Origin: Lunularia cruciata
Taxonomy: Eukaryota; Streptophyta; Marchantiopsida; Lunulariales; Lunulariaceae
DNA: 64,000 nt
Assembly: GCA_948567375.1 (NCBI GenBank)
Contig: OX419762.1
Coordinates: 29,765,465 to 29,829,464, forward strand
Direction of reading: 5' to 3'
Shown here: positions 17,781 through 46,466 of the stretch, piece by piece
How the letters are laid out: each line of letters opens with the position of its first letter
Numbering within the stretch: position 1 is the first letter of the stretch
The notes under the pieces: generated by a model
Seen by the model: the letters and a program-made list of their open reading frames with translations, nothing else
What the model was told of the DNA's origin: nothing
Databases searched by the model: none
Made by a program: the position numbers and the translations under genes

Positions 17781-19559
17781 TGACATATTGTTGAGAGGAG
17801 GATCAAATTTGGATCCAATGTGATTGTGATTTAAGTGGAATGATTGAACTGATTATATCAAACAAGTGAGAGTCAAGGATAAATTGGATGCAAGTATAAA
17901 AAGGTATTGGTGGTGTCTCCAAGCATAGAAGATCACATGTACTTTTAATCATGGTCCTAGGTTTCCTTGTATGGAAGTGCTTTACTTTGCCATAGATTTG
18001 ATGGTGACATAGACTGTGTGCAAAAGTGCTTCCAAAATTTGGTGAAGATTGAGGTTGAATTGACATTTGGTGTTCAATTTTTTTTTATCAATGAGGTGCA
18101 TCTAAGAGTGAGAGGTCAATTTTGCAATTGAGAGTGACAATTTGTAAATATGGAGGTGGATTTGAGAACTAATCTCCTTGAATTAGGGATTTGGAGGTTC
18201 TTATTCACTCAACTTGGTCAAATTTGATAGTTAGTGATAGATTTGGAGGTCAACTAAGTGTAGCAGAGGTTTGGTAGATTTGCAAAGTTGTCCAAATTTG
18301 GAGGTTGAGTTGGCAGGCTATCTAGAGTTACAGGTTGCTTGAGTTGGGTCAAATTTGGTAATGGTTGCTCTAGCTAGTGCTAGAGTTGGTAGAGGTTAAA
18401 CCGGTTTGGAAAGAGTTCAATTTAGCAAGAAGAAAAGCCTCATTTTGGGCACTTCAAGGCATAGGGTTGTGGGATTGAAAAGCTATGAAGATGTAGAAGG
18501 GCTAGCAAGCCAACTTGTTGGCATGAGACTGGCCAATTAAGATGAGTTTCTGATAGTTGTTTGGCAAAATCTGCACACACTTCTAGATTGTGCACACTAA
18601 GGTTTGAATGCCAAATCTTTGGTTTCAAGACTAATGCCCTAGCTAATTGGTCCACCCTCTCAGGTTGTCCTAGTGATTGGTAGATTGATATCCATACCCA
18701 TGAAGCAATGGCTAGGAGAGGCAATTTTATCCCATCCTTGGTGATCCTAGTAGCTTAGAAGTAGATAAACACTCATAATATATCAAATGCCAAATGGTGG
18801 TAGAGTTAGTATGGTGTTGATTCATAAGATGGAGTGTTTTTGGTTGGATTTCTTATGATTGGACCCCTTTTATTCTTTTTTTCCTATTTGTGCATCATGT
18901 TTATGGGAGGTGTCTTGACTTTAGAGCATTGGTACTTTGGTGTGCTCTTGGTAGTGAGGCTAGAGTGATGACTAATCAAACTACCTATGTTTCTCTTTGA
19001 TGAAACAAGAAGTGATGACTTATAGATCTTGAGAGTGCATGTTATGATGGCAAGTTACAAATCATCCTTTCTTCAAGTATATTTGTCACAATAAGAGCTA
19101 TATTAGTGAGTGGTGTTGAGTTGTTGGTGTCACTTGGTGGAGTACTTGTGGTGGGTATGATTATGGTTTGAGTTACATTGTCATTATGGAGTACTTTGGG
19201 GATTCTAGAAGAGATATCATTATAGTAGAAGAGATATCATTATAGTACACAACAGGTTTACATAGAGTTACAGTCAATATCAGGCTATATTTAAGGTCTC
19301 TATGAGGGAAGAGAGTGACTTAGAGTTGGAGTTTGATATATGAATTGATTTAGTTGAGAGTGCATCTGGTTTATATGCAATATGTTATAAGGACATGGGC
19401 AAGATTTATATCCAAGTGGTCCAAGTATTACTTTGGTACAATGGGTACCATTGAGTTGGATGATTTCATCCAAGAGTTTGATAGTTGGTGTGATTTGTAG
19501 CAAATATGGAACCCTAAGCTAACCGTTCATGGCATGGAAGGTGTTATTCTAAAACTTGG
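17781..19559 (+). other. G-rich repetitive stretch, no recognisable gene
   Basis: Between about 18060 and 18420 the motif (C)AAATTTGGAGGT recurs in loose, unequal spacing, giving a G-over-C strand bias. A 20-bp tandem duplication (TAGAAGAGATATCATTATAG twice) lies at about 19218-19257. The 94-codon minus-strand frame at 18440-18724 shows no family features. The true 5' end of element E, including its 5' LTR, should lie here but I could not find it. Confidence 0.4.
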
Positions 19560-20369
19560 AAGGTCCACCAATGGATGACTAACATGAATTTAAGAGAGCT
19601 CACTTATAAGAGGTTGAGCTATGGAGACAATATTGGTCTCCAAACTACATCTTCATCATTTCAAGCTTGGTTTCTAGGGTTAGATCAAGAATACCTACAA
19701 GTTCTAGCTCTAGTAGCATTGGAATATCTAGTGGAGGTGCAATTGTTGGATATGATGCTATTACAAGTGGAGGTACCTTGACAAGAGGTTGTGAAACACC
19801 AAGGTTTAAGCCCATGGTGGAATTTATCTAATATTTGAGGTAGAACGACCAAGGCGTGCAAACTAACAAGCTAAGGAGCTTGTAGGAGTTCCAATGAAAG
19901 TTGGAGAGAGCTTATGTGAGGCATATACTTACATGAGATGGTTGATCAATTTCACTCAAGGAGTTACTAATGCCCAAGCAGTCCTATTTTGATATGGGAT
20001 CTTAGACAAGGAGTTGCAATGTAGAGTATGTGGTACTATGTTATTACAAGCTACTTCACTTCCTTTGGTGGTGATCTTTAGTTAGGCTTAGCACATTGAG
20101 CTCAACTTGGTGGAGGAGAGAGTGGTGATATTTAGATTTGGAAGGGAGACCTCATCACAACTATCATGTCTTCTTAAGTGCAGTAGAGTGCACCACATTA
20201 TGTTGGCTTTGAAGCAAAGTGGATAGCCCAAATCTTATGGAGCAAGTAGAGGCCTAGTGTAGCTAGAACCTTACCTTCATTTTTTAGTCACCAAAAGAAA
20301 GTGAGTGGTGGTGTTGCTTGTTGGACTTGTGGTGGACTTCACCACAAGTGAGAGTGCATTTAGGGCAAT
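19560..20369 (+). pseudogene. Element E gag, up to the zinc knuckle
   Basis: Around 19880-20130 the fragments ESLCEAYTYMRWLINFTQGV and KELQCRVCGTM match a gypsy gag pattern in which a helix-rich stretch is followed by a GL.PELQ..V-type block. Near 20320 the sequence codes CWTCGGLHHK, then a TGA, then EC, which fits the CX2CX3HX4C zinc knuckle of plant gypsy gags. The TGA falls inside the knuckle. The reading frame stops at GCAAT (20365-20369), the target site of A3, and continues at 26599 with NKHNHYHK-type sequence. Several stops make it a pseudogene. Confidence 0.6.
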
Positions 20370-21511
20370 TGTAACAATATGGAGTTTACTAACAATTGTT
20401 TCAAGACTAATGAAGTAACAAATATGCCAAATTAACCTAAAATATTCTAGAAGTATCTAGGAAGCTTCTTGGTACCATTTGGTAAACATGTATGCCAAGT
20501 AGAGACTTATATTAGGAAGCTTCTTGGGAAGGTTATTGGCTAGCTTAGCTTGCATGCCAAGTAGGTGGTTTCTAGAAGGAAGCTTCTTAGGAAGCTTCCT
20601 AACTAGCTTAGCTTGTACGCCAAGTAGGCGGCTTTCGGAAAGAAGCTTCTTGAGAAACTTCTCAATTAGCTTGACTTGCACTCTAAGACAATGGCTTTGA
20701 AGAAGCTTCTTGAGAAGCTTTTCAAGAGCCTTGTATGCTTCCCTATAAACACCAAAACCTAAGCCCATGCTAGGCATTGTAATACCAAAGCTAGACATAT
20801 TAGCTAGAGGTGAAAATTGGCTTGGTAACATCTGGGAGGATGTTATGTATGATGGGCTACATATATCAGTTAGAGGTGTAACCAAAAGAGTACTTCTACT
20901 AATAGAGCAAAGCCAAAAATAGCCTAAAGTTGTATTACCAATAGCTAGACATATTAGCTAGAGGTGAAAATTGGCTTGGTAACATCTAGAAGGATATTAT
21001 TTATGATGGCTAGGTAGATCAGATAGAGGTGTCACCAAAATAGGACTTCTACTAATAAGGTAGGAGCCAAAAAAAGCATGGAAATTTTAGAGCCAATTTT
21101 GGAGGCTACCTCACCCATACAATTTAGAGATTCCTATAGGAAGATTCCCTAAAGATTCCCTTTGGTCAAAGGTGGTTTGACCAACCCAATAGGATCAAGA
21201 CCAACATGTCATCCATGCATGCAACTAACTAAGGGTAGAGATTAGTGGCATGTCACCTATCCATGTATCTGATCCAAGGATGAAGCTTCCTTTGGGGTAG
21301 TCTTCTTTGCTATATAATACAATTAAGGTGCTCCTTTGGGCATCAGAGGTTTGAGTGTGAAATGGTGTTTCTCATGGTGTGTTTCTCTTCAGGTCTACTA
21401 CCCTTGGAGTATTACAAGCATTTGGAGTTTCCTTCATTCAAGTGTCATAATATGATCTTCCACTCCAATCTTCCATTTTCTTATTTCTCTCCCTGGTTGT
21501 GGTCTTTTACA
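20370..21511 (+). repeat. 5' LTR of A3, interrupted by a solo LTR-B
   Basis: It begins TGTAACAATATGGAG. GAAGCTTC palindromes occur at 20460, 20515, 20578, 20590, 20641 and 20701, followed by the TATA-like CCTATAAACACC near 20742. At CTAGGCAT (20777) the LTR is split by LTR-B and resumes at 21422 with TTGGAGTTTCC, ending CTTTTACA at 21511 before the primer site. The 142-codon minus-strand frame across this LTR is an artefact of its tandem units. Confidence 0.8.
20778..21416 (+). mobile_element. Solo LTR-B inside the A3 LTR
   Basis: TGTAATACC... to ...GGAGTATTACA, 639 bp, with no internal region. Flanking pentamers GGCAT (20773-20777) and AGCAT (21417-21421) form a target duplication with one G/A difference. 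It contains a duplicated 5' unit (20778 and 20931, period 153) and a TATA-like GCTATATAATA near 21309. Confidence 0.85.
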
Positions 21512-21530
21512 TTGGTATCAAAGCAAGAAT
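21512..21530 (+). promoter_or_regulatory. Primer-binding site of A3
   Basis: TTGGTATCAAAGCAAGAAT follows the LTR terminus. It matches TGGTATCAGAGC with one G-to-A change, as expected for initiator-Met tRNA priming. Confidence 0.8.
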
Positions 21531-21779
21531 GAGATGGATGGAATTTATGGACCACCAAATCCATTTCCATCAAACCATTGGAATTTTGGTATTCATGTTA
21601 TACCCAAGCATCATTTCACTCAATTCATCATCTCATGCTTTGGGTAGAACTTTCTAAAATGCAATCACCTTTTCTGATGAACCCTTGGGAGTTCCAATTG
21701 TAACTTGCGGAGAATGATGGACGTGTTGTATCTATGTGTTAACTTAGATCAACTATAGGAAGGTTAATAGAGTAGTAGT

Positions 21780-22610
21780 CATGGCAGCAATGCTCAAGGT
21801 TATTGTTGCCATGTAGCAACAAATAAAGCACCGTACTTGATTGTTGGAAGAACAAGATCATCAATAACAAGAGCAGGTAGGGAGAAGACCATTTCAAGAA
21901 GGAGAAGAAAAATCTAATTTCCAAAGCCCAAGGTATTTGAAGGCAAGAATCTCTTGGATGTAGTGGAGAATTTTTTGTTTGACTAGAAATGTTATTTTGA
22001 AGCTGCAAATCTTCAAGATAAATAGAAATAGATTCTCTTGACTTCCACAATTGGATGGAGTAGCAAAGCTATGGTGGCTATTCCAAGTAGAGCAATCTGA
22101 ATAGCAATTTTTTGCACCAATCTTGACATGGGCAGAATTCAAGAGGGTGATAATTAGTCCATTCCAAGCTATAAATGCTACACAAGTTGCACAAGATAGG
22201 TTGGCAGAGTTTACATAGATTGGTTTTGTAAGAAGCTACATTGTGCAATTCCAAAACATCATCATGCAAATTCTAAATATATTGGAGGGTGAAGCTTTGA
22301 AGCTAGTTGAACGCTTTGATTCTTTGGTTGCAACAACTTGGTCTTGACCTTGACCTCCGCAAAATTGGGTAGGAGAGCCAACATCAATGGAGCTTGATGC
22401 AATCCAATGGAGACCACTTAGCACTATAGATAGAGAAATTTATGCCAAAATGATGGTTGTTTTTATGATTGCCAAATTGGACATTGTATTGCTAAATTTC
22501 TACTCAAGACTAGGTTACCTTGACAAATTGCCCAAATGGAGTTTGTGGAGTAGAATGATTAGAAAAAGAAGGAATCCCAATAGGAGATTTTGAGCCACCT
22601 ATTAGAAACT
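21780..22610 (+). pseudogene. A3 gag remnant
   Basis: Short readable runs occur in all frames: WMEWQSYGGYSK around 22050, AEFKRVIISPFQAINATQ around 22130, and FVRSYIVQFQNIIMQI around 22220. These are the retrotransposon gag signature shared with A1 and A2. A knuckle-like YDCQIGHCIAKF near 22465 keeps two of the cysteines and one histidine of a CX2CX4HX4C finger. Stops and shifts throughout. Longer minus-strand frames here have no family features. Confidence 0.6.
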
Positions 22611-22639
22611 TGATTAGTTCCAAAAGGATTAAAGGCTTG

Positions 22640-22945
22640 ACCTATGCATGTTTGCTTCACTTGCAAGGTATGATATCTGATAATGGTTATAGGATTTTGG
22701 TGGATCCCAAAAGTTAAGAGAATGGACATGCAATTAGCAAAGGAATTAAGTATTTCTATCAAGCTAATAATTAGAAGTAGATTGATGATGGTGGATGGTA
22801 GAAAGGGTTCTACATTTTGTACCTCATATTTTATTACATTCAAGATTGGAAAGGATTATGTGGAGTGTATGAGGTTTGTAGTGGCACCTCTACACTATGA
22901 TGTCATTCTAGGTTTACCTTGGCTTGAACGTCACAAGATTTAATA
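22640..22945 (+). pseudogene. A3 protease and linker
   Basis: From 22683 an 86-codon frame stays open: MQLAKELSISIKL, then DYVECMRFVVAPLHYDVILG and LPWLERHKI. In gypsy elements the YDVILGLPWL block ends the aspartic protease domain just before RT. The catalytic D-S/T-G should lie just upstream, near 22640-22690, and is not recognisable. The frame ends at a TAA right after HKI. Confidence 0.7.
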
Positions 22946-23199
22946 AAAAATTCAAGGACAACACCTAGATAGGAATTTATGATTAGATTGTCTGACACCT
23001 TTGAGTAGGACATGTAAGAATAATTAGTCTTTAGATGGGAATTTTGTCCAAAAAGCAGCCATAGAGCAAGCTTTGAAGGAAGATAGGTCCCAAGATGGAA
23101 AGTTTGTCACTAAAGCAGCCACAGAGCAAGCTTTGGAGGAAGACAAGTCTATTTTTGTGGTGTGGATCAAGCCAATTACACATGGAGAATTTGAGGAGG

Positions 23200-24560
23200 G
23201 CCACAAGTCTCATCAAGAAAAGGTTGATCAAATAGTTCAAGAGTTTTTAGATGCGTTTCCAATTGATCTGCCAAAAGGATTACACTTTGATCGGTGTATA
23301 CCCTTCAAGATTGAGTTATTGCTAGTAAGTACTCCATTGAGTAGACCAATCTATTGGCTCTCACCAAAGAAGTTGGATGAGCTTTAAACAACATTGACAG
23401 AGTTGTTGGATAAGGATTTCATATGACATAGTACATCTCCTTGGGGAGCACCACTATTATTTATGCCAAACAAAGATAGAGGACTTTGCTTTTGTATTGA
23501 TTGCAGTGGTTTTAACAAACAAACAATGAACAATTCATATCTCGTGCCTCAATTTGATGCTTGATCAATTGAATGGAGAACAATACTTCTCCAAGTTGGA
23601 TCTTGGAAGTGCCTATTGGTAGATTCCTATTGATAGAAGATGTGCAAAGAACTGCCTTTTGCACAAGATATGGACATTTTGAATATAGAGTTCTACCTTT
23701 TGGGCTCACTAATGCTCTAGTAGTCTTCATGGATCAAATGCATAAATTTTTAGATGGGTTACTGAATTGGTACATGGTAATGTTGTAAGATGATTTTTAA
23801 TCCATAGCAATAAAGGCAGAACACACAAATCACATGTGAGAAGTCCTAAGATGACAATGTCAATGGAAATTTTATTGCAAGAAGTCAAAGTGTGCCTTTT
23901 GGAAAAAGGAAGTTACCTTCTTAGGTCACAAGGATCTCATCAAAGGGGATCAAGATGGTAAAGGAGAAAATCAGGGCCATTATTTGATTGGCCTACTCCA
24001 AAGGATACTATAGAAGTACATGCATTTAATGGATTGGTAAGTTGTTACCACAATTCATTCACTACTATGCTCATGTAGCCACACCTTTGAACAACCACTT
24101 GGGGAAGAAATCAAGCTTTTAGTGGACCACCAAGCACAAAGAAGCATTCCAAAAGCTAAAACATATGGTGTCTTCAAGACCCATTCTTCAACTATATGAT
24201 CTTCAACTACCTTGTGTGGTTGATTTCAATGTTTTTAACTTTGCAATTGGAGCCATGTTTCACTAGGAGTTTCCATATGGGTTACATCATATTGCCTTTG
24301 TGTCACGTTGACTAAACATCATAAAAAAGAATTGCTCTAGTCAAGATCAAGAACAACTAGCAATAGTATATGCCAACAAGGTATGGAGGTATTATCTCTT
24401 GGGAAAACAAGTAATCATGCAAATCAATCACAAATGCTTGTTCTAGGCATTACATTTAGAACACATGAAGAGTTTACATCATTGATGGAAGGAATGACTA
24501 TAGTTGTTTGACCTCAAACTTGAATACAAACTTAGTAGGTTCCATGTCATCTCCAATATC
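23200..24560 (+). pseudogene. A3 reverse transcriptase and RNase H remnant
   Basis: RT begins near 23222 with VDQIVQEFLDAFPIDLPKGL and RPIYWLSPKKLDEL. It loses frame at about 23385, then shows TSPWGAPLLFMPNKD near 23437. A second open run (23573-23788) has TAFCTRYGHFEYRVLPFGL and TNALVVFMDQMHKFLDGLL. This ends at VMLxDD, the position of the catalytic YxDD, with a TAA replacing the variable codon. RNase H follows (about 24120-24560), with VTFLGHK-like and FQKLKHMVSS-like pieces in shifted frames. It is clearly Ty3/gypsy and clearly broken. Confidence 0.75.
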
Positions 24561-24699
24561 CTATAATGACAATCTAATTTGAAATCTCTTCCTCTAATCA
24601 CAATGGCAATTATGATGGTGTCAATCAACTCCAAGGTCCAAATCAAGTTTAGGACCACTTTATAACAAGATCTCTTCTTTTTAGATGGTACAAGGTTGT

Positions 24700-25800
24700 C
24701 TTTGTGCACATGATAAGGAATACAATACCTTCTCCTTCAAAGAAGGCATTCTATTTTGGGATAACTGGATCTATGTCTCAACTAAGGATGATTTATGACT
24801 TGTGCGCCTTCAAGAAGCCCATGACTTACAAATCACTGGTCACATGGGTGTGGAAAAAACCTTGGGTACCCTACAACGCTAATGGTGGTGGCCCAACATG
24901 GCACAAGATGTTCAAGAGTTTGTCTAATCTTGTGAGAGCTGCCAATGCAACAAGGCCAACAACTTGAAACCAAGTGGACTCCTTCAACCACTTCTCATCT
25001 CATCTACTTGATGGAACACGTGAGCTTAGATCTCATCACATCCTTGCCCAAGACAAAGCAAGATCACAATAATTGTGGTGTTTGTGGATAAGTTTAGTAA
25101 GTAAATCCATTTGGCACCAACCTTTGATACAATGGATGTTTCAACATTGGCCCTGATCTACTTCAACAATATCTTCAAGCATCATGGGATGCCTTGTGTA
25201 CTCATCTCTGACCATGACTCTTGTTTGACCGGAAAATTTTTGCAAGCACTCTTCAAGATATTTGGCACCAAGCTTGCTTTGTCCATGACCTATTATTCTC
25301 AAATTGATGGACAAACTAAATATGCAAATCATACCTTGGAGGATATGCTTATTTCTTTTTTCAACATTCATCATACCAATTGAGACAAGTGTCTTGCAGT
25401 TCTTGAGTTTGCTTACAATAATTCCAAACAGGAAAGCATAAGATTCTCTCCCTACTTCCTTAATTTTGGCCAAGACCCACTTGTTCTAGATTCCCTTCTT
25501 GCTCCACCTCCATCTCATGTTCCTCATACTTCCACCTTCTTGACCACCATATCCCAATCCTTACAATAAGCCAAATCTCATCTCCTTGTTGCTCAAAATT
25601 GTCAAAAACAATATGCTAGCCAACATCATCATGATCTCACTTTTCAACTTGGGGGGAAGGTCATGCTTTCTTTTAGTAACGTACCCCTCCCACTTGATAC
25701 CCAACTCTATAAACTTGTTCTTATTTGGATAGGTCTATTTGATGTCACCCAAATCATTTCTCTTGTTGCTATCGACTTGCCTTGCCTCTCATATGATCCA
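24700..25800 (+). pseudogene. A3 integrase with catalytic Glu replaced by Lys
   Basis: The H2C2 zinc domain lies at about 24760-24970. The core begins about 25068 with VVFVDKFSK, holding the first catalytic aspartate, and continues in an open frame from 25111: LALIYFNNIFKHHGMPCVLI, then SDHDSCLTGKF with the second aspartate, then DGQTKYANHTLEDML. Gypsy integrases normally read DGQTER.N.TLE here; the third catalytic residue is a lysine (AAA at 25318-25320). The C-terminal domain (25560-25800) reads in other frames. One TAA interrupts the core just upstream of 25111. Confidence 0.8.
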
Positions 25801-25902
25801 CCCTATTTTCACATTTCCAAGCTAAAACCCTTTCTTTTTAATCCATCTTCCTTTTTCTCTCATATCCAACCTCCTCATCCTCTCATGCCTATCAATGATC
25901 AT

Positions 25903-26067
25903 GAAGAGTATGAAATTGATCATATCCTTGCACATTGCCACATTCAACATGTTCATCAATAACATATTGAGTACAAGGTCCTTTGGAAAGGATATTCCTT
26001 TCATGATGCCACTTAAGAACCTCTTTCTCACCTCCAAAATGCACAAACAGCTATCCAAGAGTTTGAA
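25903..26067 (+). pseudogene. A3 chromodomain
   Basis: In one frame the sequence reads EEYEIDHILAH, then a stop, then HIEYKVLWKGYSFHDAT, a second stop, then EPLSHLQNAQTAIQEFE. It has the aromatic and WKGY landmarks of a chromodomain at the C-terminus of integrase, which places family A in the chromoviruses. The two stops fall in TAA codons. A weak purine tract (GTGGGAGAA) lies between it and the 3' LTR at 26113. Confidence 0.8.
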
Positions 26068-26112
26068 GCTTCAATGGCAATAAGAACATCATCAACTAAT
26101 AGTGGGAGAACA

Positions 26113-26593
26113 TGTAATAATATAGAGTGTATTGACAAGTTAGTCAAGACTAATGAAATAGAAAATAGGTCAAATTAGCCTAGAATATTCTAGAAACATC
26201 TAGGAAGCTTCTTGGTAACTTCCAAGTACTGGATAAATATAGATGCCAAGTGGTGACTCATAGGAAGAAGCTTCTTGGCTAGCTTAGCTTGCATGCCAAG
26301 TAGATGGATTCTAGAAAGAAAATTCTTGGCTATCTTAGCTTACATGCCAAGTAGACGGCTTCTAGATGGAAGCTTCTTGGGAAGCTTCCCAGTTAGCTTG
26401 ATTTGCACTCTAAGAAAGCGGCTTTGAGGAAACTTCTTGAGAAGCTTCTCAAGAGCCTTGTATGATTCCTATAAATACCAAAGCTCAATCTCATGCTAGG
26501 CAATCAGATTTTCCTTTATTTAAGTGTCCCAATGTGATCTTCCATTCCGGTCTTCCATTCTCCCATTGCTCTCCTTGGTCTTGATCTTTTACT
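26113..26593 (+). repeat. 3' LTR of A3
   Basis: It starts TGTAATAATATAG. Palindromes GGAAGCTTCTTGG, AGAAGCTTCTTGG, GGAAGCTTCTTGGGAAGCTT and AGAAGCTTCTCAAG lie between about 26200 and 26455, just upstream of CCTATAAATACC near 26472. It ends ...GATCTTTTACT at 26593, followed by the TCAAT target pentamer. Confidence 0.8.
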
Positions 26594-26598
26594 TCAAT

Positions 26599-27426
26599 AA
26601 ACATAACCATTACCATAAATTTAGTCACACAAGTGACCAATCCTTTGATCATCATCCAGAGTTACAAAGTGGTAGGGCTACTATGGCTACTAAGATTGTG
26701 CAATTGGAGCAAAGATTGGCTAGTATGGCCATAGCTCAAAGAAGATCAAATTTGGGTCCTGAGGCTTCCACCTCTTATGTTGGTGATAGAGATGTCTTGG
26801 AATTTATGTGCAAAATATCATAAGTAGATGCATATACCGTAGTGACTAGGAGTGCAATATGTGCTCCATAGCCTAAAGGAGCATCAATGGAAGAGAGGCT
26901 GGTACACAAGTCAGACTTCCCTAGTCTTTCACACTTTCTGAGGCACTACAAACAACATCCATGGCTCTCAGATGTCCTAGTGCACATGTGGTAGGTGATG
27001 ATGGAGGACATGATAGACTAAATACTAGCTAGCCACCTACTATTGCACAAATTCAGTCTAGCTCAATGTTGAGTGTTGCTCAATTGATCATATGCTTCTC
27101 TTTGTTCTCAACTAGTGACATGGTTACATTGGGAGTTCACCCAACTCTAGTGTTTTGGTTGGCTACCATAAGGTGAGAGTAAGGATGATATGGTTCTTGC
27201 TTCTAGAGTAGAGGTAGATAATAGTGGAGCTGACTTGAATGAGAAGCATGGGATCTATTTAACGACCAATGGTTTATGGCAAGCAATAACAACTAGGTTG
27301 GAGCAATTACCAACTAAACATGCCTTTGAGCAAGCTTGGTTCACACTTGGAATTGTCATATTGAGCAACCAGAGTGGGATATTCTGTTTGGTAGGACCGT
27401 CAAGGAAAGTCTATACACCACAATGA
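26599..27426 (+). pseudogene. Element E gag end and spacer to protease
   Basis: Directly after A3 the E frame resumes with KFSHTSDQSFDHHPELQSG. A helix-forming stretch follows, TKIVQLEQRLASMAIAQRR (about 26690-26750), which may be a short coiled coil, and the run ends at 26823. A second open run (27190-27426) carries LEQLPTKHAFEQAW and ends PSRKVYTPQ directly before the protease. These pieces are not recognisable domains on their own. Their position between zinc knuckle and protease makes them the gag-pro linker of E. Confidence 0.5.
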
Positions 27427-27790
27427 GTCTTATTAGACTCAAGTGCGTAACCTCTTATGTTGGAGAAGGTTGCAATTGTCGATCTTAAGCTACCAAAGAT
27501 CAATTTGAAGAGGTGCACATTTTAGATCCAAACATCTCTATGGGTGGTTCTATATACTCAATCACATGTGGGGAGCTCTTTGTCCAAATTCAACCTAGGC
27601 ATCTGATTGATAGCTCTATGGTGAGAGCTTAGGCCATTGTGACAATAGTAGAGTCATATGATGTGCAAGTTGATGGAGTTTACCTCATGGGTTTCAATGT
27701 TGACTATTGGGAGGAGATAGCTTCCTATAGGCCAGGTTGGCAATCAGGTGAAGGATGAGTATGTTACCTATCAATGCGCTTTAGTAGTTG
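27427..27790 (+). pseudogene. Element E aspartic protease
   Basis: The active-site block reads VLLDSSA, a stop, then PLMLEKVAIVDLKL (from 27427). It corresponds to the retropepsin pattern LLDSGAQPLMLG, with the catalytic aspartate at 27436-27438 and CAA (Gln) turned to TAA. Further on, after a frameshift, come MGGS near 27540, ESYDVQVDG near 27655 and YWEEIASYRPGWQSGEG near 27703-27755. This C-terminal stretch is longer than the protease of family A, so E is a different lineage. It is inactive through the stop and shifts. Confidence 0.65.
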
Positions 27791-28451
27791 TAGTCTTGGC
27801 TCACTACAATCAATGACCATGACATCATTCTTAGTTTTCAATGGTTCCATTACTTAGCCTGGTGACTTATTAAAGGGGAAATTCCATGCAAAAGACACCC
27901 AATACCATAAGAGATCACCTCAAGTGCAAGTGAGATTGTTCCATCCAACTTGGATGTTCCATTGTAGAGTTCTAAGGAGGCATTGCAATAGCATTTAAAT
28001 TAGTTGGTAAAATGGGCTTAGCATAGAGTCTTTGTACCACAAAGAAACCCATGTAAGATGAGCTTCTAGAATATATTACCTTGTCATCTTTGGATACCAC
28101 ACTTATTGCTTGGCAGTATCCAATAAAGGAAGAATGTCTATTGGAATTGTTTGGTGGGATTTAGCACTAGACTAGTTGTGGTACTGCATGCATGTATATA
28201 GGTTTAGTGTTACTTGTATGTGGAGAGAGATGAGATTCCTAGGTGAGTCTTTTTATATCATGTGGCACACTTGGTCTATTAATATCCTGAGTTATTATAG
28301 ATGTCAATAGTTGGGGGTTACAAAAAGATCTTACTAATAGACATTTCCTTGTTGGGGATGTGGGATATGGAGAAACATTGTTCTATTTATTTATTCATTT
28401 GATGATTTCTAGATGGCCATGTCAAGGACATACCCATGCTAACAAAGGTCA

Positions 28452-28502
28452 AGGATACATAACATCTCCCAATCTATAGGATTGGGAGATGTTATGTATC
28501 CT
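28452..28502. repeat. Perfect 23-bp inverted repeat
   Basis: Left arm 28452-28474 and right arm 28480-28502 are exact reverse complements, separated by TATAG. The left arm is the coding sequence just after methyltransferase motif IV, so the right arm looks like a local inverted copy of it. Confidence 0.9.
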
Positions 28503-28778
28503 ACAACATTTCTAGGTTCATCATTCCATATTTCCAACCTATATTTCGGAAACCTACCTTTTGGATAATGTCCCTTTGATGGGTGATTCTCATACACAAA
28601 TGGTGGCAAGTATACATACAGTCTATTCTTGGATGGAAGCTATTATTGGTTAGATGCAACCAAAGTTGGATCACGGGCCCATCATCTTTGTCTTTGGTGC
28701 ACAAACCTCTTACCTAGAGATGTTTTACAACATGCCTATGATGGGATTGAACAACTAGCCCACCTTACTATTGATATT

Positions 28779-28821
28779 ATTCTAGATATTGAGCACAAGT
28801 ATGGTACTCAATATCTAGAAT
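28779..28821. repeat. Perfect 15-bp inverted repeat
   Basis: ATTCTAGATATTGAG (28779-28793) and its exact reverse complement (28807-28821) flank a 13-nt spacer. It lies in the methyltransferase region after the WCTNL block. Confidence 0.9.
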
Positions 28822-29105
28822 GGTAGTGGCTCATAGGTCACATATGGTAGTGGTAAACCTTGTTGGGTAGCCCAAAGCCACTTTACCCACACTCATGAGT
28901 TTCCCAAGCTCACATGCTTTTTGAGAATGAGGTCTTGGACTTTTTTGAGACTCACATTTACTATTGTAAATGTTTAGGACTCACATTTATTGTTGGTGGA
29001 GAACATTGCCAATGAGAGGGAGCAAGTGATGGGTTTTCTATATCAATGTTACCACCATTTAAGTAGTATCAAAGGCATCCAGGTGTTAAGTCAAGTTATG
29101 GACCT

Positions 29106-29137
29106 AAAGTTACCTAAGTTACCTAAGTTACCTAAAC
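29106..29137 (+). repeat. 9-bp tandem repeat at the methyltransferase/RNase H junction
   Basis: The unit TTACCTAAG is repeated about 3.5 times directly after the end of the methyltransferase domain. A full RT would be expected nearby but is missing. A second short array, TCTTTGTA three times, lies at about 29640-29667. Confidence 0.8.
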
Positions 29138-29139
29138 TA

Positions 29140-29450
29140 TTTGGCCAAGATTGTGAACCTTGACTTGGTAGAGCAACATAGGATGTGCTTGATAGGCATC
29201 ACCACTCAAACACTTGTGAGATTTATAACTATTGAGACTATTCAAGCACATGTTGGGAGTGAGCGAACAAGTGGGTATGTCATTCAACCATAGAAGTGGT
29301 TGAAGGAGTCTAACAAGCTTTCAAGGAAGTGTGCATGATAAGCTCTAATTTTTACAAGTATGATTTCATGGTTATTCACAAACCTAGAGCGATGAACCCA
29401 GAAGTAGATGGGTTGAGTAGAAACCAATGTCCCAACCAATAGGATCAGAT
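29140..29450 (+). pseudogene. Element E RNase H C-terminal part
   Basis: The recognisable piece is SNFYKYDFMVIHKPRAMN, then PEVDGLSRNQCPNQ (about 29341-29440). This is the end of a gypsy RNase H, which typically reads YDF.V.HRPG..N..ADALSR. Upstream, 29140-29340 is coding-like but unrecognised. No RT fingers or palm could be found between the methyltransferase and this point, so most of RT appears deleted or moved. Confidence 0.6.
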
Positions 29451-29734
29451 TGGATCATATTGGCATGGTTAGATAGATGAGAAGATGGTGGTAGATTGGC
29501 ATGCATATACTTCTCTATGTAAATTTTCTAAGGCTTTGATGGTATCTCTCTTAGCACATACAAGAGGAGTTGTTGAGGTCACAAATCCAAAGAGTGAAGA
29601 TATTGGGATAGGTCAATTAGATATTCTTAATGATGGCTTATCTTTGTATCTTTGTATCTTTGTATCTAGATCGTGCTCAATCATCCAAGTGCATCACCAA
29701 TACCCAATGAAGCATCTTCTTGGATGACAAGTTA

Positions 29735-30258
29735 TGGATCTCCAATGCTCTAGAACTAGAAACCACCATTCTTGCTAAATGTCATGATTCAGCCATTGCA
29801 AGTCATGCTAGAATGGACAAAACCTTAGATGCAATCAAACTCCATTAGTATTGACCCAAGATTAGCCAAGATGTGATGGAGTATGTTAAAATTTGCATCC
29901 TTTATCAATAAAATAAAGCTCTTAATCAAGCTCCTATAGGTCTTCTTTAACTCCTTCCTACCCTACACAATATTTGGGGTAGGTCAGCATGGAACTAGTT
30001 TGTGAACGGCCCAAGACAAACATAGGGTTTGACTCCATTATAATCTTTGAGGACCAATTGAGCAAAATGATTCATTTGTGTTCTATGACCAAGGACATGA
30101 TTGCACTACAATTGGCTCAATTGTACTAAGTTTTGATGATTTCTCAACATTGCATGTCTTGAGTGCTCATTACAAATCACGACACTCAATTCACTAGTTT
30201 GTTTTGGAGAACACTCTTTGGATTCTTCAAAACTAAACTTGCAATGTCCATGGCCTAC
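29735..30258 (+). pseudogene. Element E integrase, N-terminal half
   Basis: H2C2 zinc finger: AKCHDSAIASHARMDKT, then PKISQDVMEYVKICILYQ (about 29760-29930), with the usual two His and two Cys positions; the last Cys is now Tyr. The core begins about 29985: the first catalytic aspartate is in SIIIFEDQLSKMIHL and the second in ITNHDTQFTS near 30176. GFFKTKLAMSMAY ends at TGGCCTAC (30258), where element B is inserted. Scattered stops include one after VKIC. Confidence 0.7.
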
Positions 30259-30999
30259 TGTAATACCAAGGTTTAGCCATATGATCTAGATGTGAAATTT
30301 GGTTTGGTAACATCTAGAATGATGTTATACATGATGGTCAAAATAGATAAGATAGAAGTATCACCAAAAGAGTACTTCTACAAATAGGGCAGAAACTGAA
30401 ATAGACTTAAGAACCTTAGAACCAATAGCTAGACATATGATTTAAAGGTGAGAATTGGTTTGGTAACATCTGGAAGGATGTTACACATGATGGACTAAAC
30501 AGATCAGAAAGAGGTATCACCAAAAGGGGACTTCTACTAATAGAGTAGGAACCAAAATATGCCTGAAATCTTTGAAGGCAATTTCGGAGGCCTAAACGGA
30601 TGAATTAGGCCTCAAAAATGTGCAGATTACCCCCCCCCAACAGAGTAAATGCTGGCCTTCCCTCCCCCCTCCTTTGTCTCGTCGAGAGCTTTCCAACGGT
30701 ACCTTACTCACATGATTCTGAGATTCCTACAGGAAGATTCCCTAAAAGATTCCCTCCGGTCAAAGCTTGTTTGACCAACCAGATAGGACCTAGACCAAAC
30801 AGGTCACCCATCCAAGTAAGTAATCCAAGGGTGGAGCTTGCTGACATGTCACCAATCTGTGTCCCTAATCCTATGGTGGAGCTTCCTTGGAGGAGATCCT
30901 CTTTGTCTATATAATAAAGAGAAGGTGCTCCATTGGAGCATCGAATGTTTGAGTGTGCAATCTGTGTTTTCTCTCTTCTCTTGTCCTCGGAGTATTACA
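30259..30999 (+). repeat. 5' LTR-B of element B
   Basis: TGTAATACC... to ...GGAGTATTACA, 741 bp. The first ~155 bp occur twice (from 30259 and from about 30416). A C-tract lies at 30630-30640. The TATA-like CTATATAATA is at 30907-30916, with the GGTGCTCCATTGG block about 15 bp further on. Confidence 0.85.
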
Positions 31000-31000
31000 A

Positions 31001-31013
31001 TGGTATCAGAGCG
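31001..31013 (+). promoter_or_regulatory. Primer-binding site of element B
   Basis: TGGTATCAGAGCG, one base after the LTR end. It is an exact copy of the plant initiator-Met tRNA primer site. Confidence 0.9.
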
Positions 31014-31671
31014 AGTGTTCTAGTCCAAGAGAGTGGATCACCCCTCTTGGAATAGCACAAACTACTAAAACTAAGTAATGTGAGGTGGAGAACATAGAGT
31101 AATCGCTAGACTTAGGAAGGACTTTAGAGAGCGGATGGGATGGATGCGTGGGGGGGAAAATTTCCTGCTCCTAGCTTTCCATTCTGAAACCCATTCCACA
31201 TCAAGGTTATGTACATCCAGCGTGAGCAGATGAGGGTATCGCTAGTTTATCACTTTGGTGCAGAATTCATGGACAGAGTGATGAACTAACCAAACCCGGT
31301 GATTCTACCTGTGGTGATATATGACAGAGAGTGGGATTTGACGATCTACATTCTATTATGATAAAATGGATATGAATGTCCCAAATCCTCTCCCTTTCAA
31401 CACTCAAGTAAAAATCCGTTATGTAGTGAGGCCGAAAGTGATGTTTAGAGATTTTGTGGTTAGGAATTTTGGTGAGGAGTATTATCAACAAGTGATAGCT
31501 TCTGAGGTCCCAATGGTAGTTCCGATAGTTTGTGCGCCTTCCAGAGTGATTATATTGACTCTGTATTGAAGTAGACGTGAGCAATTGGATGTTGCAGGAA
31601 CCATGGATCCGTAGTTGCAAGAGCTGGTGCAAGGAATGCAAGGGATGTTGAATGAATTTTGAGAGATTAAG

Positions 31672-32370
31672 ATGACCATGGATACATTACAAAGTCAAGT
31701 GCAGATCCTGAGGAACGATCAAGCCATGCAAGAAGAAGAGCCACCTCAAAACCCTGTACCTGCAACGGAAGTGCTTGGAGAGGCACCCGTGCCTACGAAC
31801 CCTATCAACGGTGAAGCCACATTGCTACTCCGGATGAAGAAGACCTGCAACATCGAGCCTTACAAGGGGCAGCGTACGATGGGAGTAGTGGAAAATTGGA
31901 TCTCAAGAATGAATCAATATTTCCGATTGTTCTCATCAGAGATCATTGAGCATGCTGCAGGCGTGTTTGCATGTGGGTACTTGACGGATAAAGCCCTCAC
32001 ATGGTATGATGCTTGGGAACAATCCATACTGGCAGAGAGAAGGGAGGTCACATGGACAGCAATGCAAGAAGGATTGCTAAAGAATTTCCAATCGGTGGAT
32101 TCTGTACAGATGGCTTGAACCCGACTATGGGGATTGAGACAAAAGAATAGCATACAAGAGTATGTAGAGTTGTTTCTGGATCTACAAGTCGCAATTACCG
32201 ACATGAATCCAACAGAGGCTCTCGACAATTTCAAACGAGGGTTGAAAGAGCGGATTTGCCAAGAAGTCATGGTGCAAAACCCTTGCACGGTATTTGAAGC
32301 CATTGCTTGTACACAGAGAATAGTAGGAGCATTAGGTGGAGGTGAAGGAGTAGTTCCACCTCAACATTAA
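31672..32370 (+). pseudogene. Element B gag (one internal stop)
   Basis: A 233-codon frame interrupted only by a TGA at 32116-32118. It starts at an ATG (MTMDTLQSQVQILRNDQ, likely a coiled coil), then a Pro-rich linker. The capsid-like retrotransposon gag domain follows: EPYKGQRTMGVVENWISRM, FACGYLTDKALTWYDAW, and after the stop NSIQEYVELFLDLQ and ALDNFKRGLKERICQEV. This is the standard plant Ty3/gypsy gag layout, in which the protein would coat the genomic RNA. A CGA-to-TGA transition would explain the stop. An ATG further upstream (31366, VPNPLPFNTQVK) is in a separate frame. It is the best preserved gag in the window. Confidence 0.85.
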
Positions 32371-32510
32371 ATTATTGCGCAGAAATGCCACACATGGGTG
32401 GACCAATACCAATGGAATTGGGCAACCTTTGATTCCGGGATCGAGGAGCACGACCACTTCAAGGAGAGCTGGGACAGGTAGAAGAACAAAGAGATGGAGT
32501 CCCACGAGGA

Positions 32511-32620
32511 GAAGGGACTCAAGGAGAACAGCGCTGTTGTTACAATTGTGGCTGTATTAGGCACATATCTACCAATTGTTGCACTCGTTTCCCTAGAGGC
32601 CCTCGGCCTTTGTACAGGTC
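32511..32620 (+). pseudogene. Element B gag zinc knuckle
   Basis: In a frame shifted relative to the gag body the sequence reads EGTQGEQRC, then CYNCGCIRHISTNC. This is a perfect CX2CX4HX4C knuckle (Cys 32538, Cys 32547, His 32562, Cys 32577), followed by RFPRGPRPLY. It is the nucleic-acid-binding end of gag. Frameshifts between 32370 and 32510 separate it from the rest. It runs straight into a truncated LTR. Confidence 0.85.
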
Positions 32621-32882
32621 AAAGCTTGTTTGATCTGGTTGGTCAAAGCTTGTTTGACCAACCAGATAGGACCTAGACCAGATAGGTCACCCATCCAAGT
32701 AAGTAATCCAAGGGTGGAGTTTGCTGACATGTCACCTATCTGTGTCCCTAATCCTATGGTGGAGCTTCCTTGGAAGAGATCCTCTTTGTCTATATAATAA
32801 AGAGAAGGTGCTCCCTTGGGGCATCGAATGTTTGAGTGTGCAATCTGTGTTTTCTCTCTTCTCTTGTCCTCGGAGTATTACA
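32617..32882 (+). repeat. 3' LTR-B of element B, 5'-truncated
   Basis: It matches 30763-30999 of the 5' LTR and lacks the first ~500 bp. At the junction GGTCAAAGCTTGTTTGA occurs twice, 25 bp apart (32615 and 32640), which probably marks the deletion that fused gag to the LTR. It ends ATTACA at 32882 before the target duplication. Confidence 0.85.
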
Positions 32883-32887
32883 CCTAC

Positions 32888-33200
32888 CATCATAAATTGA
32901 TGGACAAATAGAGCCGGCCAATTGTATTATCAAGGACATTGTATAGGGCTTCAATTTGGAAGAGCAAGAAAGGTGGGACACACAACTTCCCCTGGTGGAA
33001 TTTGTCTATAATAATTTAGTGAATGCATCTACAAAACTTACACCATTCTTTCTCATGTATGGTAAACACACTTTCATAGCTTCAAGCCTAGTAAAGGTCG
33101 GCCCAATGGCAAGCAAAGTTGATTTTGCCAATGCTTTTGAATATCAAACCTAATAGAACATGGAGAATGCCAAGAATAGGTTGTAGATAGTCTAAAATTG
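32888..33200 (+). pseudogene. Element E integrase, C-terminal half
   Basis: It continues the core split by element B: the frame reads DGQIEPANCIIKDIV, keeping the third catalytic residue as glutamate (GAG at 32911-32913). After a stop, EEQERWDTQLPLVEFVYNN then TPFFLMYGKHTF complete a typical gypsy integrase core end (32956-33153). A one-base loss near 32897 shifts the frame. The catalytic glutamate is present here but lost in family A. Confidence 0.75.
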
Positions 33201-33549
33201 CTAAAAACAATATGCAAATGTACGTCATTGGCGAATGGTGTTTGAAGTTTATCATTGGCAAATGTCATATTAGTGTTTGAAGTACATCATTGGCAAATGG
33301 TGTTTGGGAATCATGTGTGGCTGTCCACCACCAATATTACATAGCTTGGCTCTTTTAAGTTCAAACCCCGCTTCATCGGTCTTTTCTCATCATCTAGTGC
33401 ATCGGAGCAATGGCATATCATCTCAAGCTACATTCACACATGAAGATTCATCCAATTTTTCATGTTTTTTTGCTAAAATATTATGCACCCCTGCCTCTAC
33501 ACTTTTCTTCTCTACAAAAAGCTCAATCTTGTACAACACTCATTAATGG

Positions 33550-33760
33550 AACGGTAGAATACAAGTGAAGCGCATTCTCAATAAATGCATTTGAGGCACC
33601 CGCAATCATCATGTGGAATATCTTGTCTATTGAAAATGCTACACATTGAATGAGGCAACCTTTGAACCTGCAACTAAGTTGACCAATGCACCAATAATGG
33701 TGCAATCTTTTGAGAACCAACTTTGCTATGAGGATGTTGCATAATAAATGAAGGGAGGTT
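33550..33760 (+). pseudogene. Element E chromodomain and polypurine tract
   Basis: The frame starting 33571 reads RILNKCI, a stop, GTRNHHVEYLVY, a stop, then KCYTLNEATFEPATKLTNA. It is a chromodomain with the EYLV.WKGY..EEATWEP landmarks, the WK pair now TGA-Lys. It ends about 33730. The polypurine tract AAGGGAGG (33751-33758) directly precedes the LTR start at 33761. This makes E a chromovirus. Confidence 0.75.
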
Positions 33761-41800: not shown

Positions 41801-42765
41801 GTTGTATGAGGCCACTTCCACCCATGACTATAGGAAGAGTTATTTGCTGTCTATACACTCATCTCATATGAGAGTTGTGTGAACATGCATGGCCCCAAGA
41901 GAATGGAAAAAGTGTGGTGCTATCAAACATTGGCAAGTGTGGCAATTGCGTCTCCTATTCACATGCGGATCTATGCTCCTATCAATTTATAGCGAGTTTG
42001 TTATATACAATTTAGAACTTTCAGTCGCCAAAGCAAACTTGAATATGCCAATCGAAACTTCGAGTTTGACACCAATTTAATCTCAAAATTATATGTTCGC
42101 TCGTTTCATATGAACTCGTTTCTACTTTGCGAACTACGTTATTGTTCATTGTTAAACCTTTTAACCAGCTTGACGTTCCATTAGACCCAAATGGTGTAAT
42201 AATATGTAAAGTTTCTCTGTATGGCCATGATGAAAGTTCCTTTTAAATGTACAAACCTCAGTCTGGCGAGATTGCTCAAAGCCCAAGTCTGAGTCTTGCT
42301 GTGCCGCGTGAACATTCTGGAAGACCGTGACGTGCAACCTATTGATTCGTTGAAGAGAAACCGTGTTAACTTTGTCACGTAGAACAAAGCTATCTCCAGA
42401 CACAAGACCTTCACGATTTCGTTTGATGGTAACAGGAGGTCATATTACTTCCTTACTGTCTATGTTTCGTGTATGAATTGTCTGTGAGTACATCTAGCTT
42501 CATGAACTCATCTCACTAGTGCCATCTAACGATAACTGGTGGAGGACTGTTGTTCCACACAGATTCCCAGAGCAGAACAGATCCAAACCAGAATCAGATT
42601 GGTGAAATTGTTTTCGTTTAGCTTGCACAATTTACAGTTACCTGAAGGACTTGTGCGTTCCTGGGTTTGAAACTTGAGTTCTACTTCAACATGATTCTCT
42701 GCGAGCACTAGGTATAACTATCACGATTGTAAAACCTGACGTGGATAAGCAAAGCAGTTGATAGT

Positions 42766-42925
42766 GAGAAAGGCGACCGCGTAGAGAACACCAAGGATGG
42801 GAAGACCCCATCAAACCGTACAAGGGAGAAACGAAAAAGGTAAAATGGAGCTAGTCCCCAAATCTGCCTTACTGCATCTAAAATATCAAGTCTATGCATG
42901 TCATATGGTCTATGATATTGAAGGC
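42766..42925 (-). mobile_element. LINE-alpha, 5'-truncated tail (~160 bp)
   Basis: It matches the 3' end of LINE-alpha as seen at 52637-52800 and 59795-59960: GGCGACCGCGTAG, GGATGGGAAGACCCCATCAA, CCGTACAAGGGAG and the GCATCTAAAATATC block. The element's 3' end points to the left. Confidence 0.8.
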
Positions 42926-43796
42926 TGCGCTTTATTAACAGGGCCCCGTTTAACGTCGTTTGCCGCTAACAAAACACCCTTGTGGTCCTCCCTGTTGTTG
43001 AAGGGAGGATACCAAGTGTTGAAGTTTGTACGTATTGCACTCAGCACAGAGATATAATTGCGGTTTGGACTCGGTTTCCAGTATTATAACGGAACTTTCA
43101 TGAGAAGAGGCCTTAAATGAAAACATGTTTGCATCTACAATAATTTCCAGTATGGAAAACTACTCCATATTTTTCCGGAACGGCGACATTGAAAGCTTAA
43201 AACACATACGACATCTTCCAAAGTTCTCTCAACACTCACGAAAACTTTTCTTACGTGGATGTTTCTAGAGTATAAGTCTTTTTATTTGTAGCTTAACGAT
43301 GGCAAAAATATAGCTACAAGCATAGTCATCATGATGATATGTCTCCTGGACCTCATTTTAACTTTAAACTTGCCGAGTTTCAAGAATAGTACTCGAGCTC
43401 CCCATGCTTTATCTTGCAATTTATGACGAAGTCCAAACTCCGAGACATTAGTCCAGATGAACTCACCCAGATGCCGATATGAAGCCTTCCAGTCGATGAG
43501 AGAGATGCGTCCTGTTAATTGAACTCGGATGTTGACACAAATCTTTTGAAGTTTGGAACGAATCGGTAAAGTCAAAGAGCTCATGTTTTAATCCACGTGC
43601 CTAACCTATCACACTAGTGTTTATACCGGGGGTCTCTAATTTGCTCCAGAACGTCGTGCTAATTACTCTCTTGGAGATTAAACATTTGGATTTAGACAAT
43701 TTTAAAATTTAATATCTAATATTCCGCAGCAGATGTCTTTTATGATTCGCTGCCATCTAGAAAACATCAGGGTAATCTAAAAAGGTGGAAATGTGA

Positions 43797-43890
43797 GCCA
43801 CGTCCCCATTACCTTTTTTGTCTCCCTTGTACGGCTTGATGGGGTCTTCCCATCCTTCGTTTTTCCTACGCCGTCGCCTTTTTCGTATTA
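43797..43890 (+). mobile_element. LINE-alpha, 5'-truncated tail (~95 bp)
   Basis: CCTTGTACGGCTTGATGGGG, TCTTCCCATCCTTCG and GCCGTCGCCTTTTTC in sense orientation. It is the inverted partner of the copy at 42766-42925. Confidence 0.8.
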
Positions 43891-44606
43891 TGATGACTCC
43901 TGGATAAAAGTTTCTGGTAAAACCAACCTTTTTAACGTCCAGAACAAACTTATCGAGAACATGAGGTGCCGTATACTCGCGACTCGGGCACGGTGTGGAT
44001 GCCTCTTAAGCGATTCACATGGTTCTTTTGGGCTCCGGCGGCGCACTAAAAGACAAAGTCCGGCAATTAGAATTTTGACGGAGCTCATGTGCACGTCAGG
44101 TCTACCTGACATTCAAAGCCTCAGCCGGAGTTTATCCGTCAGGCAGCTCTAGCTCCGTTTGAACCTTTGCGAACCGGGAATTTCCTAGATTAATGGGTCG
44201 GGTGATACAACGTGCAATAATATTATCGAAATTCCCTTTCTGTGACAGGTTTGCCCGAGAATGAACCTGTCGACTTCCCGTCTTCGCTACATCGAGTCTT
44301 TAATATTTCCAAGTAAATACATTTTCTATTTTAATTTTTGACCTTCGAGACTGGATGCAGACGTAATATGTTTTACCTTCTTCATTTTTGGACCGTTAGT
44401 CATGCGTGACTTAAGAATGGAAGCATTTTATTAATATTCTTTTTTGAGATAGGAAAAGAAATGGTTTTTCAACGAAAACCAATTCCAATACTCGGGTGTA
44501 ATATTTTCTTTTTATTCATAAATTTTTTCTCCCCTTACTTCCCCTTACTTTTGATTAATTCCATAAGATTTTTATTTGAAACTCCATTAATCATAAAAAT
44601 CCATCA

Positions 44607-44702
44607 ATATATAGGAAAACAAAAAGCTAAATTTTATGATCACTCCTTTGTTGTATATATAGGAAAACGAAAAGCTAAATTTGATGATCACTCCTTTGTT
44701 GA
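44607..44702 (+). repeat. 48-bp tandem duplication, in frame
   Basis: Units at 44607-44653 and 44656-44701 share TATAGGAAAAC.AAAAGCTA and ATGATCACTCCTTTGTTG. The period of 48 keeps the surrounding 91-codon frame (44461-44736) open, giving YIGKxKAKF.DHSFV twice. No known protein is recognised. Confidence 0.8.
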
Positions 44703-45047
44703 AAACGAATGTGAAAATTTTCTTATTGATTTGTAAACCCGGAACTCTTTACTTTACATTACCTAATTCGAGAACTGGTTACCTATTAACGCCAGTCACT
44801 AATCCAAAGTGACCCGTCATCACAAGTATACATATGAGGTTGACGTACGTCCAAATTCACTGCCGGACCTATGCACTCCCATGGACACATGATTATACTC
44901 TTTCCGTCAATGTTTTAGAGGCTGACGGACGTCAAAACTGACGTACATCATTGATCCATGTGAAGTGGCCTTCTGACTATCCGCCTTCCTGCCTCACTGT
45001 TGTTTGTAACGCACCTGGTAGCGACTGATCTAAGCCGGTGAATGTAA

Positions 45048-45070
45048 CCTGACCTAACCTAACCTAACCC
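45048..45070 (+). repeat. Short (CCTAA)n tract
   Basis: Three perfect and one imperfect CCTAA units between GTAA and CAAGTTC. This is the arthropod-type telomere unit TTAGG on the minus strand, not the plant TTTAGGG, but it is too short to be a telomere. Confidence 0.7.
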
Positions 45071-45417
45071 AAGTTCAGTACGAACCCGACGCAACCTAAA
45101 ATTCGTTTATCACGGACAAAGAAGTCACATCGTCTGCACTGGTAATTTATCCCCAATGTACCTGCCCGACCAACCACTTGTACACAACACAACAGTCCAT
45201 TCTCGAAAACTGCAATTGGATAATTGCCACTCTCGATAAGTGTCATGAAATGAGTTGGAAAAACTTACAGTACAGTAGTAACTGCGGAAGTGCAATGAAC
45301 ATTAGAGGACAGTTTTATATGCAAATCTCTTTGAATAGAGTTAGTTGTATTTTCAACTAAAATTTTGAAAACTGAAGATATTTATACTCTCAACTGGATA
45401 TGTAGCCATATATCGGG

Positions 45418-45473
45418 GAAAAAGGCGACCGCGTAGGAAAAATGAAGGAAGGGAAGACCCCATCAAACCGTAT
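45418..45473 (-). mobile_element. LINE-alpha, 5'-truncated tail (~55 bp)
   Basis: AAAGGCGACCGCGTAGG, AAGGGAAGACCCCATCAA and ACCGTAT match the LINE-alpha 3' end in antisense. It is cut off just after the CCGTA block. Confidence 0.75.
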
Positions 45474-46422
45474 ATCTATTTATGCAGTATTTGGATAACT
45501 GCAAAACCTCCATAACTGCAATATCGAGGCGGGAAGAGGCATTGCACTTACCAAGAGTGAAGGTACATATAGGCGAAATGAATGACGCAAAGAGTGGGTC
45601 CCAGGCTCTCTGCTATTGTGTCGCGACATGCACTGCCTGACTGCTCTGAGGATGTCCGTGCCATATACGGACTCGGCGGCTACGACATCCGTGCCGGAAT
45701 GCCATGAGGTAAGTTGCTCTGTGGCCGATATGTACGTCCGCGATGTGTCCTGCCTAGAGTTGAAAGCGCCATACTGTAAGCAGTCGAGAATTGGCGCCGT
45801 GCGCCTCTAACAACTGACATTCGGTGTAGTGGAGAGTGCAGTGCAAAGATTCATGTAAAGAACGTGATTCTAGGCCTCTCTCCAATAAGTACTCGATAAA
45901 GAAATCTTTCATAATGACTTTCTGGGTTGCGTTGGTGTATATGCTTATGATATATGTTGATTGCTCTAAACTCACGCACATGCAGTTGTGATGGAAACAC
46001 TGTTTGTGCAAAAAGAAAAAGCCGGTAGCTATTTATCCCGTAGGGCCCTATATCGTATAGGTAGGTCAAAGAGGAAGAATAGAACTAAGCTCTTCTTTCG
46101 ACCTACATATGTAAGTTCAAAGGAATTGCTCAATGAAACTTACTGTCCTCCGAAGCATCCATTGAGAGCTCCTTCCATAGTTATCCCTGATTCAGATTCG
46201 TAAAGACGGAGCATCAACTAATTTTGTTCTGCAGAAGAAGACTGACTCTACACATCTACCCTTGAGTTTCCCAAATTGTCGCCTTCGCCTTCGGTCACAC
46301 TTTCCATAATCCATGAATCAGAGAATGGTACTATTAAAGGGAATGTAGTGATATGTACCGAGTCCGTAGAGAATCCCAACTGATATATCGAAGGGAAACC
46401 AAGAGACGACAGCTCTCTGGCT

Positions 46423-46466
46423 ACTCTTTATTGTTGATATGCTTGTATACTCTTTATTGTTGATAC
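46423..46466 (+). repeat. 26-bp tandem duplication
   Basis: ACTCTTTATTGTTGATAT at 46423-46440 recurs at 46449-46466 with one change. Confidence 0.8.

Follow-up and report, generated by a model that had tools for sequence, protein, structure and literature searches.

A fossil Ty3/Gypsy retrotransposon copy with a putative DNMT3-class cytosine methyltransferase in Lunularia cruciata

Can a Gypsy retrotransposon of a land plant carry its own cytosine methyltransferase? Hosts fight transposons with cytosine methylation, and an element equipped with a methyltransferase of its own reverses that. A 2019 article states that land plants lack transposons with DNA methylases (PMC6338049), and no report of methyltransferase-bearing Gypsy elements in bryophytes was found among the titles and abstracts listed from the open-licence literature. 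The question is raised by a 64,000-nucleotide stretch of Lunularia cruciata DNA (contig OX419762.1, positions 29,765,465 to 29,829,464 of the forward strand; hereafter the window), in which an earlier sequence-only reading had seen a Ty3/Gypsy retrotransposon with a captured C5-cytosine methyltransferase (MTase). We are nearly certain that the locus is a dead, nested copy from a Ty3/Gypsy family that carries a DNMT3-class C5-MTase between its protease and its reverse transcriptase (RT).

The window contains the remnant of a C5-MTase

Five C5-MTase motif blocks were found in the window, all on the plus strand, at the places given by the sequence-only reading and in the order of unrearranged C5-MTases. 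That reading had assigned the MTase to 28126-29109; the enzyme is indeed there, and its extent proved wider, about 28069-29171. The features of this part are as follows (P numbers designate related proteins).

28069-29171, plus strand: C5-cytosine MTase remnant of the putative DNMT3 class, from the alignment to Marchantia P0010
28141-28158 and 28163-28195, plus strand: motif I, LELFGG and STRLVVVLHAC, two blocks in different frames
28414-28431, plus strand: motif IV, WPCQGH; codon of the catalytic Cys at 28420
28564 (Asp codon), plus strand: motif VI, DNVPLMGDS
28677-28709, plus strand: motif VIII region, AHHLCLWCTNL
29014-29037, plus strand: motif IX, EREQVMGF

The main reading frame of the region contains 30 stops in 660 codons. 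Used as a protein query with X at the stops, it matched seven proteins at E values of at most 10, with Marchantia Mp_8g15430 at the top (E = 1e-22); the methylase profile PF00145 is present in three of the seven and is carried by relatives P0002-P0004. A tblastn search of the window with P0003 gave seven chained pieces over 26605-28954 (E = 3e-81), and when residues 335-1230 of Marchantia P0010 were aligned to 26605-29263 with frameshifts allowed, 829 residues were paired, 374 of them identical, across 28 stops and 11 frameshifts, with a score of 1253 vs 63 for reversed DNA. The chained pieces and this alignment indicate that the resemblance to an MTase is more than chance. Counting against this identification, hmmscan of single-frame reads of the MTase region did not find PF00145, and the related proteins come from gene models or metagenomes. 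The single-frame scans are blank because the profile match is interrupted by stops and frameshifts; the PF00145 search that the sequence-only reading had proposed as a check, and whose failure it would have counted as a refutation, gave nothing directly and was answered through the relatives and the frameshift-tolerant alignment.

In the MTase part, 172 of the 340 residues aligned with P0010 are identical, and 13 stops interrupt it. Ten of 16 invariant MTase residues are retained, and so is the catalytic Cys. Motif VI has an Asp where the invariant Glu is expected, and in the motif VIII region Arg and Trp are replaced by Cys; with its stops, frameshifts and altered invariant residues, the window MTase has neither an open frame nor intact catalytic motifs. 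The idea that this element writes methylation itself did not survive: since it has 28 stops, 11 frameshifts, the Glu to Asp change in motif VI and no RT, the window copy is a fossil that is unable to write methylation. That the frame is still functional, for example spliced or domesticated, has practically no chance of being right. The retained Cys would fit it, as would the identity to P0010 (51% for the MTase vs 43% for protease and linker), but the stops refute it unless transcripts show otherwise, and the changes in motif VI and the motif VIII region speak against it as well.

The MTase is built into a Gypsy polyprotein

With the MTase region of P0003 as query, 7995 candidates were scored at a threshold of E up to 1e-3. 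At least 68 proteins matched, P0003 included, and an organism was assigned for 23 of those listed: among the matches listed, 18/68 are from Marchantia, 2/68 from Calypogeia, 2/68 from Sphagnum and 1/68 from Closterium. Because the query was the MTase, sister elements without it cannot show in this search. No Klebsormidium protein occurred by name among the relative matches listed, and the viral contigs scanned with P0003 contained no relative.

The matches listed and those of the main-frame query gave 72 relatives whose domains were mapped. The MTase lies 3' of the protease in 54 of them and before RT or RNase H in 11. Protease, MTase and RT occur in one chain in single proteins, and P0016 reads protease-MTase-RT-RNaseH; RT-RNaseH-integrase-PHD is found in P0052 and P0072, and the full Gypsy order is present in the relatives taken together. 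A Gypsy lineage with a captured C5-MTase in a land plant, as the sequence-only reading had proposed, is borne out by these layouts, and its worry that the MTase might be a chance neighbour is dispelled by an MTase built into the polyprotein of the relatives. A host DNMT3 pseudogene that adjoins a Gypsy element by chance is, in the same way, a very improbable explanation. The MTase is apparently of the DNMT3 class and cellular DNMT3 is reported in plants (PMC10952607), but dozens of relatives have protease, linker and MTase joined in a single protein, and the collinear match of the window over 829 residues refutes the pseudogene. The protease-MTase-RT order of the relatives, the profile, the predicted fold and the collinearity of the window all point to a DNMT3-class C5-MTase inside the Pol polyprotein.

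In three of the 72 relatives (P0052, P0061 and P0067) the MTase lies behind RT-RNase H. The MTase thus has two positions within the polyprotein, which could be accounted for by a single move or by two captures. Eleven relatives reach the integrase; a PHD finger follows it in seven, and the other four end earlier. The PHD finger, a possible histone reader for integration, was seen in P0052, P0062, P0063, P0064, P0066, P0072 and P0073, of which only P0062 is assigned to a land plant.

The MTase motifs are conserved among the relative proteins. Motif IV of the relatives was read by pattern, and 18/72 gave no pattern match. The Pro that precedes the catalytic Cys is replaced by Glu in P0052 and P0055 and by Ser in P0056.

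Class of the MTase and its known counterparts

The MTase is nearest to DNMT3 both by profile search of PDB chains and by predicted fold. The PDB profile list (E 1e-3) and the 50 fold matches listed held no MET1, CMT or DNMT1 chain, which excludes nothing. We assign the MTase to the DNMT3 class with unrearranged motif order, an assignment based on profile and predicted fold. Unlike cellular DNMT3A/3B, the window MTase is embedded in a retroelement polyprotein, and its motif IV reads PCQ where that of DNMT3A reads PCN.

Quick trees were made with 58 relatives and the window, 14 of the 72 relatives having been dropped as too short. The window row fell within a 17-row clade (SH-like approximate likelihood ratio test, SH-aLRT, 100), the same whether it was aligned via Marchantia P0010 or via the outside row P0024, and grouped with bryophyte rows and rows without an organism assigned. 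The window branch is long and its letter composition odd, so that its position within the clade is not fixed. P0052, P0061 and P0067, the relatives with the MTase behind RT-RNase H, fell in one ten-row clade (SH-aLRT 98).

The nearest known system is KnitGypsy-Dnmt3 of Klebsormidium nitens, which, as described in PMC5890265, is alike in its long terminal repeat (LTR) Gypsy domain set, in a DNMT inside the Pol polyprotein and in the unrearranged DNMT3 class. The window copy differs in its land-plant host and in being dead, and the likeness is one of published description, not of sequence, so one lineage is not implied. SymbioDIRS-Dnmt3 and SymbioLINE-Dnmt of dinoflagellates are likewise C5-MTase-bearing retrotransposons, the DIRS ones of the DNMT3 class, but they belong to the DIRS and LINE orders and are reported there as independent captures (PMC5890265). 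In a 2025 survey, retrotransposon DNMT3 of streptophytes and dinoflagellates is mentioned as previously reported, and the LTR elements are called Copia (PMC12344493). The kind represented by the Klebsormidium Gypsy-Dnmt3 is therefore known already; what is new is the wider host range and the two polyprotein layouts.

A possible role of the MTase in intact members

In intact members of the family, the MTase would be produced as part of the Gag-Pol polyprotein and would remain beside the RT in the particle, where it may methylate the element's own new double-stranded cDNA at cytosines, probably those in CG. If this occurred before or just after integration, the new copy would arrive already marked. 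We put forward this cDNA-methylation step tentatively, at slightly under an even chance. Dinoflagellate retrotransposon DNMT3 domains carried out de novo CG methylation in yeast (PMC5890265). Two observations detract from the step. Expressed in yeast, the Klebsormidium Gypsy domain produced no methylation (PMC5890265); since human DNMT3B did not work either, the authors of that study regard the result as inconclusive. In the window, moreover, no sign of self-methylation was seen, the MTase element being no CpG-poorer than the other old DNA.

With a chance likewise a little below one half, the MTase of intact members may serve another use: RNA methylation, chromatin marking at the insertion site, or damping of the element's own transposition in favour of the host, options that are named in the Discussion of PMC5890265. 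The PHD finger behind the integrase of some relatives could tie the complex to chromatin, which would suit such a use. Against it, though not decisively, the nearest relatives of the MTase are the DNMT3 de novo DNA enzymes, and its place beside the RT favours cDNA.

A wider picture can be sketched, to which we give a little less than an even chance. The MTase-bearing Gypsy elements would be a large, old streptophyte lineage that entered land plants and stayed in liverworts and mosses, with the MTase moved at least once within the polyprotein; on that view, the elements would methylate themselves as a routine part of their cycle and would continually supply bryophyte genomes with de novo methylation. 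Behind this stand the layouts, protease-MTase-RT in bryophytes and Closterium, and RT-RNaseH-MTase-integrase-PHD in another group of elements. Annotated proteins place the family in two liverworts and Sphagnum; one of the liverworts is the laboratory plant Marchantia polymorpha, in which one can therefore test why a transposon should methylate DNA.

Anatomy of the copy and of the downstream block

The other parts of the MTase element are listed here.

19414-20357, plus strand: gag remnant up to the first zinc knuckle (tblastn with P0010 and P0002, 44-62% identity, four pieces)
26605-27155, plus strand: remainder of gag, a second zinc-knuckle remnant and the linker after it (tblastn, P0003 and P0010)
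27268-27540, plus strand: aspartic protease remnant (LLDSSA.PLML), 47% identical to P0003 across 91 residues
27561-28066, plus strand: protease-MTase linker, conserved among relatives (tblastn 34-44%, P0010 alignment)
29172-29275, plus strand: tail 3' of the MTase up to the junction (alignment ends at 29263 with P0010 and 29275 with P0003)
29285-29496, plus strand: RNase H C-terminus of the MTase family (tblastn, P0016 E 1.6e-10, P0038 E 3.6e-10)

The gag, protease and MTase of the window match the family at about 40-60% identity per piece (tblastn). The retropepsin upstream and the RNase H end downstream, both predicted on the same strand by the sequence-only reading, correspond to the remnants at 27268-27540 and 29285-29496. 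The unit that it had drawn holds for protease, MTase and RNase H end, but leaves out the gag, which sits 6 kb further upstream, beyond a nested element. The copy retains gag, protease and RNase H end; its own integrase was not found, and its RT is missing, the nearby tblastn RT pieces (23.6-24.4 kb) falling inside the nested element. Most of the RNase H is missing too, at the junction at about 29275.

The insertions and the block downstream are as follows.

20370-26604 (outer ends approximate), plus strand: chromodomain Gypsy insertion of about 6.2 kb between the two zinc knuckles of gag, with LTR-like repeats and a Chromo domain
29700-30258, plus strand: integrase remnant of another type (Integrase_H2C2, 1.3e-11)
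30259-32882, plus strand: younger Gypsy insertion that interrupts the downstream integrase (target duplication CCTAC, LTR pieces)
32883-33717, plus strand: rest of the downstream integrase, with a weak chromodomain behind it (33562-33717; Chromo 3e-4)

The integrase and chromodomain could also form one unit with the MTase: either a chromovirus that had captured the MTase and runs from protease through MTase, integrase and chromodomain to LTR, or a recombinant of the MTase family and a chromovirus. RNase H end, integrase and chromodomain do succeed one another on one strand, and no LTR was seen to separate them. This is nevertheless unlikely in our view. In tblastn with the 72 relatives, the family's integrases match the block weakly (best E 3e-4 at 32899-33066), with no match below E 0.6 at 29700-30258. 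Chromoviruses share the Gypsy backbone and sit inside and beside the window copy; a PHD finger, not a chromodomain, is what the Pol end of the MTase family bears where it is seen in relatives, and family similarity stops at about 29.5-29.65 kb. Given the weak integrase matches and the PHD finger of the relatives, the integrase-chromodomain block is probably a different element, a neighbour joined by rearrangement. Of the downstream integrase and chromodomain claimed by the sequence-only reading, the integrase zinc domain is real, whereas the chromodomain, 4.4 kb downstream of the MTase, reaches 21.1 bits, under the Pfam cut-off of 25.1. No repeat was detected at E 1e-3 between 14.0-19.5 kb and 29.5-40 kb that could be the LTR pair of the MTase element, whose true 3' end is probably lost.

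The LTR-like repeats of the nested chromodomain insertion (20370-20776 and 26113-26502) are 77% identical, and its Chromo match has an E value of 7.5e-9. It contains remnants of an RT, an integrase and a chromodomain of its own, and related pieces occur again at 35.0-37.7 kb (repeats D6, D8-D10). The Gypsy-like insertion at 30259-32882 is young, with LTR pieces 97% identical over 242 bases and the target duplication CCTAC at 30254-30258 and 32883-32887. It is CpG-richer (0.41) and holds a gag (31603-32370) but little else; among 1318 candidates this gag gave three matches, one at 57% identity and two, at 63 and 65%, in Riccia sorocarpa, which indirectly makes a liverwort host likely.

Base composition of the window

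In the aligned remnant, 20 of 28 stops with P0010 and 16 of 26 with P0003 lie opposite Gln, Arg or Trp, positions that fit C-to-T or G-to-A decay. The MTase part contains 2 CpG in 1126 bases, and CpG observed/expected is 0.035-0.11 in 2-kb bins across 1-30 kb. Self-methylation as the source of this depletion was rejected, the other old DNA of the window being equally CpG-poor. Rfam and tRNA scans gave no match, and Pfam found nothing on pieces of 42.0-45.5 kb (three forward frames) and 52.8-54.4 kb. CpG observed/expected rises to 0.83-1.0 at 42001-48000 and to 0.79 at 50-52 kb. The DNA at 42001-48000 and 50001-52000 is not decayed methylated repeat; it is young or unmethylated, and perhaps genic.
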